Assembly: GCF_014489535.1 (NCBI RefSeq)
Contig: NZ_CP060783.1
Location: 372,001-436,000 of the forward strand
Direction of reading: 5' to 3'
Source: Diaphorobacter aerolatus
GTDB lineage: Bacteria; Pseudomonadota; Gammaproteobacteria; Burkholderiales; Burkholderiaceae_C
DNA length: 64,000 nucleotides
In this document: piece after piece, positions 27,204 to 28,837 of the stretch
How positions within the stretch are numbered: the first letter of the stretch is position 1
Layout of the letters: the number at the start of each line of letters is the position of its first letter
Made by a program: the position numbers and the translations under genes
The notes under the pieces: model-generated
Databases searched by the model: none
What the model was told of the DNA's origin: nothing
What the model saw: only the letters and a program-made list of their open reading frames with translations

Positions 27204-27941
27204 GTGAGTCAAAAAGTAGCGTACGTCACAGGGGGAATGGGCGGCATCGGTACCGCGATTTGCCAGCGTCTGCACAAGGAAGGTTTCAAGGTGATCGCAG
27301 GCTGCGGTCCCACTCGCGACCATGCAAAGTGGCTGGGTGAGCAGAAGGCCCAGGGCTACGACTTCTATGCATCGGTGGGCAACGTGGGCGACTGGGATTC
27401 GACCGTTGACGCGTTCGCCAAGGCCAAGGCAGAACACGGCACGATCGACGTGCTGGTGAACAACGCGGGCATCACGCGTGACCGCATGTTCGTGAAGATG
27501 TCGCGCGAAGACTGGGACGCGGTGATCGAGACCAACCTCAACTCGATGTTCAACGTCACCAAGCAGGTGGTCAGCGACATGGTCGAAAAAGGCTGGGGCC
27601 GGATCGTCAACATCAGCTCGGTCAACGGCGCCAAGGGCCAGGCCGGACAGACCAACTATTCCGCAGCGAAGGCCGGCATGCACGGCTTCTCGATGGCGCT
27701 GGCGCAGGAACTCGCCAACAAGGGCGTGACCGTCAACACTGTGAGCCCGGGCTATATCGGCACGGACATGGTCAAGGCGATTCGCCCTGAAGTGCTCGAG
27801 AAGATCGTCGGCTCGGTCCCGGTCAAGCGTCTGGGCGAGCCGAGCGAAATCGCCTCGATCATCGCTTGGCTGGCCTCGGATGAAGGTGGCTATGCCACCG
27901 GCGCCGACTTCTCGGTCAACGGCGGTCTGCACATGCATTGA
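27204..27941 (+). CDS. phaB: Acetoacetyl-CoA reductase PhaB
   Basis: NADPH-dependent short-chain dehydrogenase of 245 residues that makes (R)-3-hydroxybutyryl-CoA for PhaC. It has the nucleotide loop VTGGMGGIGTAIC, NNAGITRD, the catalytic Ser in NISSVNG, and YSAAKAG with catalytic Tyr and Lys. It starts with GTG at 27204, preceded by a strong AAAGGAG. Confidence 0.93.
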   Translation: MSQKVAYVTGGMGGIGTAICQRLHKEGFKVIAGCGPTRDHAKWLGEQKAQGYDFYASVGNVGDWDSTVDAFAKAKAEHGTIDVLVNNAGITRDRMFVKMSREDWDAVIETNLNSMFNVTKQVVSDMVEKGWGRIVNISSVNGAKGQAGQTNYSAAKAGMHGFSMALAQELANKGVTVNTVSPGYIGTDMVKAIRPEVLEKIVGSVPVKRLGEPSEIASIIAWLASDEGGYATGADFSVNGGLHMH

Positions 27942-27990: not shown

Positions 27991-28012
27991 CCCGCGATTG
28001 CGGGTTTTTTTT
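27991..28012 (+). terminator. Rho-independent terminator after phaB
   Basis: Stem CCCGC / GCGGG with a GATT loop, followed by eight T. It lies 49 bases after the phaB stop and closes the PHB synthesis genes. Confidence 0.85.
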
Positions 28013-28142: not shown

Positions 28143-28217
28143 TCAGAAACGCAGGGGAGCGCGCTTGCGATCACGTTCGTCGTCGGGCCAGGCAGCGAGG
28201 GTAGCAATGGTGGTCAT
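28143..28217 (-). CDS. Micro-protein A of 24 residues, twin of micro-protein B
   Basis: A 25-codon gene that is too short for ordinary gene callers. ATG at 28217, TGA at 28143-28145. AAGGAG sits 7 bases before the start. The peptide begins MTTIAT, then the core LAAWPDDERDRKRAP and ends LRF. The same core, length and ending occur at 28657-28731, with mostly silent codon differences between the two. The leaders also match: TGTCAACG about 50 bases upstream, GCGTTGAACAC, then AAGGAGTTTTC. The hydrophobic N-terminus is too short for a membrane helix; the rest is strongly charged. I do not recognise the family and give no function. Confidence 0.75.
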   Translation of the reverse strand: MTTIATLAAWPDDERDRKRAPLRF

Positions 28218-28525
28218 GTGAAAACTCCTTTGTGAGTGTTCAACGCTGAGCGATCTTTGTTCGTTGACACCCACTCGAAAGGAAATGCAAATTTACCGAG
28301 GGTTTACGCGGATATCCGTGAAGAAGAAAAATTTGAGGTGTTTTTATTTAAAAATCAAAGGGTTGGAGACAATATCTCAACCATCAAATGAAACTTAGAA
28401 GGCCGAATTCCAAACACGCTTGCCTTACATTTTCAACGCGCTCGAAACATGATCGTGAGGCTCCACCGTCCCTGTTCATGGCGCCAGATTCAATCCGCGC
28501 CATTGAAATCTGATGGACAAAAACA

Positions 28526-28548
28526 AAAACCCCGCATTGCGGGGTTTT
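28526..28548. terminator. Bidirectional-type terminator downstream of micro-protein B
   Basis: Perfect 10-bp stem AAAACCCCGC / GCGGGGTTTT with an ATT loop, with A-rich and T-rich flanks. On the minus strand it lies 108 bases after the stop of the 28657-28731 gene. It separates the two micro-protein units. Confidence 0.75.
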
Positions 28549-28656
28549 GTGTGAGGACCGAGGCCGTGTGTACTGAACAACTATGGAACGTTCACTGCCT
28601 TGCGTCGTTGAAAGGGGCTGGAAATCACGAGCTCCAGCTGACTCGAACGAATCATC

Positions 28657-28731
28657 TCAGAAGCGGACGGGTGCACGCTTGCGATCACGTTCATCATCGG
28701 GCCAGGCTGCGAGAATTGCGGTGAAGATCAT
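28657..28731 (-). CDS. Micro-protein B of 24 residues, twin of micro-protein A
   Basis: ATG at 28731, TGA at 28657-28659, with AAGGAG 9 bases upstream. The peptide begins MIFTAI, then LAAWPDDERDRKRAP and ends VRF. In the shared 18-codon core, seven codons differ from the twin. Six of the changes are silent third-base changes (GCT/GCA twice, GAC/GAT twice, CGC/CGT twice); the only amino-acid change is Leu to Val. That pattern is expected for a selected peptide, not for a chance ORF or RNA. It reads the same way as the ABC-F gene 191 bases upstream but has its own leader. Confidence 0.75.
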   Translation of the reverse strand: MIFTAILAAWPDDERDRKRAPVRF

Positions 28732-28837
28732 TTCAGAAAACTCCTTAGATGCGTGTTCAACGCGTCTCCAAGGGTTTGCGTTGACAGCGCATTCAAAGTT
28801 TTTTGCACTTCGGTTTTGATCGATATATTTTGAAATT

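Follow-up and report, generated by a model that had tools for sequence, protein, structure and literature searches.

SigAb is an ECF sigma factor of Acinetobacter whose promoter, in the report by Bacon et al. (PMC12153292), was defined by mutagenesis as a −35 box GTCAAC and a −10 box CGTT separated by a 17-bp spacer. A 16-bp spacer changes little, an 18-bp spacer gives an about threefold weaker promoter, and an A/T UP element contributes tenfold; the promoter is not read by RpoE, whose own promoter is quoted there as GGAACTT/TCAAA, alongside TGTAAC/CGWC for B. subtilis SigX (PMC12153292). The sigma factor is encoded in the operon sigAb-aabA-aabB and is held by a membrane anti-sigma protein and a periplasmic partner; ChIP-seq identifies as direct targets the sigAb operon itself, relA and a small RNA named SabS, and copper and nickel tolerance is linked to the factor (PMC12153292). 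The same account calls SigAb Acinetobacter-specific and mentions no DUF (PMC12153292).

The window, by which we mean the whole 64,000-nucleotide stretch of DNA that was analyzed (G000:C1:372001-436000 of a 4.95 Mb genome), contains a pair of 24-codon open reading frames, each preceded by an element in which the −35 box, the −10 box and the 17-bp spacing are identical to those of the SigAb promoter, with a candidate counterpart of its A/T UP element. We consider it likely that these are tandem conserved 24-residue microprotein genes, each behind a predicted ECF-type promoter (GTCAAC-N17-CGTT) that is probably read by an ECF sigma factor linked to DUF3619 and DUF3106, which would make induction by envelope or metal stress likely as well.

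Layout of the two genes

The pair lies between phaB (27204-27941, plus strand) and an ABC-F-like gene on the minus strand that reaches 28923; both names come from inspection by eye and from the original prediction. The gap after phaB had been put at about 980 bases, which agrees with the sequence as measured, and the two genes had been described as reading in the same direction. They do so, with the correction that both lie on the minus strand and are convergent with phaB. Copy A (MTTIATLAAWPDDERDRKRAPLRF, 24 codons) occupies 28143-28217. Its Shine-Dalgarno sequence AAGGAG is at 28225-28230, 7 bases before the ATG, the predicted −10 box CGTT at 28242-28245, the predicted −35 box GTCAAC at 28263-28268, 17 bases before CGTT, and a T-rich tract that may be an UP element (TTTGCATTTCCTTTC) at 28277-28291. 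Copy B (MIFTAILAAWPDDERDRKRAPVRF, 24 codons) occupies 28657-28731, with AAGGAG at 28741-28746 (9 bases before the ATG), the predicted −10 box CGTT at 28759-28762, the predicted −35 box GTCAAC at 28780-28785, again 17 bases before CGTT, and an A/T-rich tract, also a possible UP element (GTGCAAAAAACTTTG), at 28794-28808. All of these features are on the minus strand; the reading frames and the Shine-Dalgarno sequences were taken from the sequence, the boxes from a search for the element together with comparison across the family, and the tracts from the sequence and the family consensus.

A scan for terminators places a terminator-like hairpin with a T tail after copy B (28526-28548, minus strand) and another between copy A and phaB (27991-28004), matched on both strands with the T tail stronger on the plus strand; three terminator-like sites were found where 1.2 are expected. 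Across the family, 112 of 136 units have such a site after the reading frame; in the reverse complement the figure is 88 of 136. A leader peptide or attenuator was ruled out, as no same-strand gene follows before the convergent phaB.

The description of the peptides themselves held up in every detail that could be recounted. Both have 24 residues, have LAAWPDDERDRKRAP in common, end in RF and follow AAGGAG at the distances given above; between codons 7 and 24 (Leu7 to Phe24) seven of the 18 codons differ between the copies and six of those seven differences are silent. The pieces TGTCAACG and GCGTTGAACAC likewise precede both frames at like spacing. Only copies A and B match when the host genome is searched for the peptide, and no third copy was found there.

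Distribution of the peptide and selection on it

Homologues had been predicted in related genomes; they are present, and peptide, reading frame and two-box element are all kept there. A single-sequence search recovered the peptide in 12 of 149 genomes including the host's own (E ≤ 0.01), and each of the six genomes of the genus (G000-G005) carries two copies. A profile search of the host's family extends this to 60 of 399 genomes, in 17 of 141 genera (E ≤ 1e-4); in an order-wide profile search of 399 sampled genomes, all matches outside that family had E values of 0.004 or worse and were taken as chance. A scan of named contigs that demanded exact DERDRKRA returned 101 relatives, mostly labelled Acidovorax, Comamonas, Paracidovorax, Simplicispira and Giesbergeria, of which 80 were kept. 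What is fixed, also in distant genera, is the unit W-P-x-D-(E/D)-R-D-R-K-R. Both ends vary and the N-termini are free, the peptide ends directly after RKR in 10 of 136 units, and each of the 136 has 8-10 charged residues.

The 136 units are those that remained after removal of duplicates, with Trp-Pro required, at most two core changes permitted and GTCATC allowed in place of GTCAAC (three units). In the 87 of them that are exactly 24 residues long (79 distinct reading frames), dN/dS over codons 2-24 is 0.20, with values of 0.04 for the core and of 0.35 and 0.21 for the N-terminal and C-terminal codons; outside the search seed it is 0.28. At eight core positions the residue is invariant in all 136 units and the codons vary at all but Trp, an invariance that is partly built in, as the loci had been found by the core. 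At the level of sequence comparison, these ratios show the peptide and its reading frame to be under purifying selection, as had been proposed from the silent differences between the two copies, and the observation of two microprotein genes is, on the same footing, real.

Neither window peptide has a match in NCBIfam or a match above cut-off in Pfam (a Malate_DH match below cut-off, E 0.06, was taken as chance). A search of the PDB with the peptide of a relative gave no match, and neither did a search of plasmids with the peptide. No paper containing DERDRKR was found, nor anything relevant on small proteins in Comamonadaceae, in a literature search that covered few subscription papers. The opinion that no described family accounts for the peptides therefore stands for NCBIfam, Pfam, the PDB and the literature searched. 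We regard the peptides as likely to form an undescribed family of stress-induced microproteins.

Copy number ranges from one to three per locus, and 14 of 118 loci have two or three copies. Four Acidovorax and Comamonas loci (L099, L109, L122, L124) hold three diverged copies of the unit in tandem, and most of these copies have a promoter element of their own. The neighborhood is common but not constant: 85 of the 118 loci are flanked by the ABC-F-like gene as well as by convergent phaB, 16 by one of them and 17 by neither, the last figure being an upper bound since contig ends cut some loci. A functional tie to phaB was dropped on these counts, and we take the location beside it to be historical. 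Some of the 17 adjoin what by eye appear to be metK or aldehyde dehydrogenase genes. In one genus (L225, L228, L230, L231) the microgene is found away from phaB and is followed, 300-400 bases downstream and on the same strand, by an aldehyde-dehydrogenase-like gene.

The two-box element and a candidate sigma factor

In the window the two-box element occurs twice where 0.10 occurrences are expected, and only two of 100 shuffles reach two; because of this excess, and because related genomes keep peptide, frame and element, the combination of element and peptide is not attributable to chance. Among 137 non-redundant units GTCAAC-N16/17-CGTT is exact in 133, the exceptions being GTCATC in three and CATT in one. 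The spacer is 17 bases in 129 of 136 units and 16 in seven. Upstream of GTCAAC is a T-rich block with the consensus TTGCATTTTTTTGC (88% A/T at positions −15 to −10 before GTCAAC). In an alignment of 135 units most of the spacer is scarcely conserved, a conserved CATC follows 7 bases after CGTT, then the Shine-Dalgarno sequence, and the 60 bases 3′ of the stop codon carry no more than 0.26 bits per position. The aligned sequences thus show that the two boxes, their spacing, the upstream A/T tract and the Shine-Dalgarno sequence are kept through the family and that the sequence past the stop codon is not.

These comparisons change how the matching leaders are to be understood. The original prediction took the matching pieces as a sign that the whole unit had been duplicated; a duplicated unit is still a fair description, but the reading of the pieces as mRNA leader is not supported, and neither do they mark the two copies alone, for they are common to the whole family. 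As to mechanism, the original prediction went no further than guesses. With the boxes exact in 133 of 137 units across that family, their match reflects selection and not duplication only. TGTCAACG and CGTTG resemble an ECF-type promoter, the former as its −35 box and the latter as its −10 box.

The host genome has eight matches to PF08281, of which four are ECF-like sigma factors and the other four look like response regulators. Two of the four sigma factors are in our reading RpoE and FecI-like, and another, L191, has an unnamed downstream partner. (At about 94-1686 of L191 one open reading frame carries a signal-peptide protein, MVASFQIF..., and directly after it an ECF sigma domain, which could be a fusion, readthrough or a sequencing error.) The fourth, L190 (G000:C1:548073-548642), is followed by DUF3619 and DUF3106 genes, whose products, read by eye from the sequence, are membrane-like and exported, respectively. 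An L190-like gene in another genome (L060, G008:C1:1491035-1491600) is matched in two frames and may contain a frameshift or assembly error. No paper naming DUF3619 or DUF3106 was found in the literature search.

DUF3106 is present in 95 of 369 genomes of the class Gammaproteobacteria, and 29 of the best 30 DUF3106 loci from these genomes have an L190-like sigma factor. An exact GTCAAC-N16/17-CGTT lies upstream of 12 of these 29 sigma genes, within at most 330 bases, compared with none of 29 in a reverse-strand control and 0.015 expected from shuffles; the other 17 have no exact promoter in the stretch examined, which is short in several of them. The loci with the exact site, all in other gammaproteobacteria, are L277, L279, L282, L283, L290, L292, L293, L299, L300, L302, L304 and L306. 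Its presence suggests a widespread, SigAb-like, autoregulated class of sigma factors outside Acinetobacter. In region 4, the −35-reading part, L190 has 19-22 of 32 residues in common with the nine of the 12 promoter-bearing sigma factors that were extracted for alignment; for the three remaining ECF sigma factors of its own genome the figure is 9-11 of 32.

An L190-like sigma factor is encoded in 21 of 22 microgene-bearing genomes, the one genome without a match being G021 (94% complete), and also in 14 of 18 microgene-free genomes tested, so its presence alone is not telling. In the host's family none of 30 sigma-operon loci (of 36 matched L190-like places) has the exact promoter and one has it with one mismatch, from which it follows that the sigma factor is not autoregulated in that way here. 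No ECF sigma gene of the host genome has an exact site upstream, and one exact match lies inside the L190 gene.

Beyond the microgenes, the pattern [GT]GTCAAC[CG]-N16-CGTT is not enriched in 12 genomes (63 sites, 17 of them microgenes, versus 54 in a reversed control), nor is a looser pattern in the host genome (10 sites versus 22 in the control). Many sites must therefore be chance and the regulon, if real, small; a large regulon was dropped on these counts. Some sites recur in different genomes before genes that are similar by eye: MNRNIRQ... in G000, G001, G004 and G005; MKKLLAVL... (L139, L152, L161, L188, and, with a spacer of 16 bases, L129 of the host genome); genes for PVYVAPPP-like proteins rich in proline (L130, L148, L154); and genes for a beta-propeller-like protein (L141, L162). 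The products of these genes look secreted. In four genomes of the genus (L138, L174, L178, L181) the same promoter precedes the gene of a 59-residue, probably exported protein (MNRNIRQGSRALAAF...). A stricter pattern applied to ten other gammaproteobacteria gave 19 sites, including sigma operons and lipoprotein-like genes (L315, L319, L324). L312, from another gammaproteobacterium, has the promoter ahead of a gene for an exported protein whose repeats are of the NRLDQRGDRIDERLDRRGDR type.

Alternative readings and comparison with known systems

The most serious alternative accepts the microprotein genes as real and has GTCAAC and CGTT recognised by a different sigma factor, or serving as the binding site of a transcription factor. 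The host has four ECF-like sigma factors to choose from, the L190-like one is also common where there are no microgenes (14 of 18 genomes), and its operon in the host's family is without the element. Even so we hold this reading to be rather improbable: elsewhere the exact element stands before 12 of 29 operons of the DUF3106-linked sigma factor, region 4 of L190 is much closer to the promoter-bearing sigma factors than to the other three of its own genome, and a fixed two-box geometry with a free spacer is that of an ECF promoter as described for SigAb. A second possibility, that the unit functions chiefly as a small regulatory RNA, comparable to SabS in the SigAb system, with an incidental or secondary reading frame, would fit the short predicted transcript, the terminator-like hairpin after copy B and the precedent of SigAb, which uses this promoter to express an sRNA (PMC12153292). 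It is very unlikely, given that conservation follows codons (dN/dS 0.20) with Shine-Dalgarno sequence and start kept, that no conserved RNA segment lies outside the reading frame (at most 0.26 bits per position over 60 bases past the stop in 135 units) and that the window has no Rfam match at the gathering threshold, only weak ones below it.

Two further readings have a negligible chance of being correct in our estimate. If the leader were an RNA thermometer or riboswitch, a hairpin would hide the Shine-Dalgarno sequence until heat or a ligand released it, and in both window copies that sequence is indeed paired in the predicted folds (z −2.65 and −2.26 for 96-base pieces). But most other leaders do not show this fold, the stem pairs in 61.9% of cells over 21 leaders where shuffles give 61.7%, two-sided changes are not in excess, base 7 varies (G in 89, C in 45, A in 2) opposite an invariant partner, and the boxes match a proven promoter (SigAb, PMC12153292); a hairpin hiding the Shine-Dalgarno sequence was rejected, for in the family leaders the boxes are fixed, the spacer is free and covariation is absent. 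That the genes form a tandem array encoding a type I toxin peptide is suggested by their tiny size and by the two or three copies at 14 of 118 loci, and is hardly compatible with hydrophilic peptides that all (136 of 136) carry 8-10 charged residues and have no membrane segment, or with the lack of any conserved element past the stop.

On the preferred reading, of microprotein genes behind ECF-type promoters, the DUF3106-linked sigma factor would transcribe each copy, by analogy with SigAb under envelope or metal stress, being held until then by a membrane anti-sigma protein (DUF3619) and a periplasmic partner (DUF3106), as in the SigAb system. Each copy would yield a short transcript of its own that begins about 7 bases past CGTT and has a leader of about 20 bases, and extra copies would raise the dose of peptide. 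Having no signal sequence or membrane segment, the peptide would stay in the cytosol, where it may act as a bare binding motif (WPxDERDRKR), a short charged helix that starts with Trp-Pro and binds a single conserved partner. The order of Pro, then acidic, then basic residues suits a short capped helix, and the free ends of the peptide argue for a linear binding motif; from its basic end we would guess that the partner is RNA or part of the transcription or translation machinery.

The analysis adds a conserved protein family without an NCBIfam match or a Pfam match above cut-off, and since this microprotein family is tied to a defined promoter, its inducer and regulator are directly testable. 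It also connects ECF operons that contain DUF3106 with the promoter class of a sigma factor described as Acinetobacter-specific, and it points to anti-sigma and sensor functions as likely for DUF3619 and DUF3106. More speculatively, and with considerable doubt, DUF3106-linked SigAb-like sigma factors may constitute a widespread unrecognised gammaproteobacterial class with one promoter, whose main output in one lineage would be the WPxDERDRKR motif, made as free microproteins in adjustable copy number and exerting feedback on RNA polymerase itself or on the sigma factor. Were that the case, the 'non-coding' SabS of Acinetobacter might also hide a microprotein.

DUF1127 proteins such as CcaF1 are very small, arginine-rich and stress-linked, and occur in several copies per genome, and the microproteins resemble them in size, arginine content and copy number and, on the preferred reading, in the link to stress. 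However, the window peptides have no Pfam DUF1127 match, are half the DUF1127 length, have another core and come from an unrelated lineage.

The RpoE and SigX promoters, as quoted in the SigAb account, have the same two-box ECF layout as the element described here, with different box sequences. The sigma operon of the host genome has the same order as that of SigAb (by eye, a sigma gene, a membrane-like gene and an exported gene). The two systems differ in regulation and output: the SigAb operon carries its own promoter, whereas the sigma operon of the host's family is without the exact promoter, and SigAb acts on its own operon, relA and SabS, whereas the most regular target here is predicted to be a microprotein gene.
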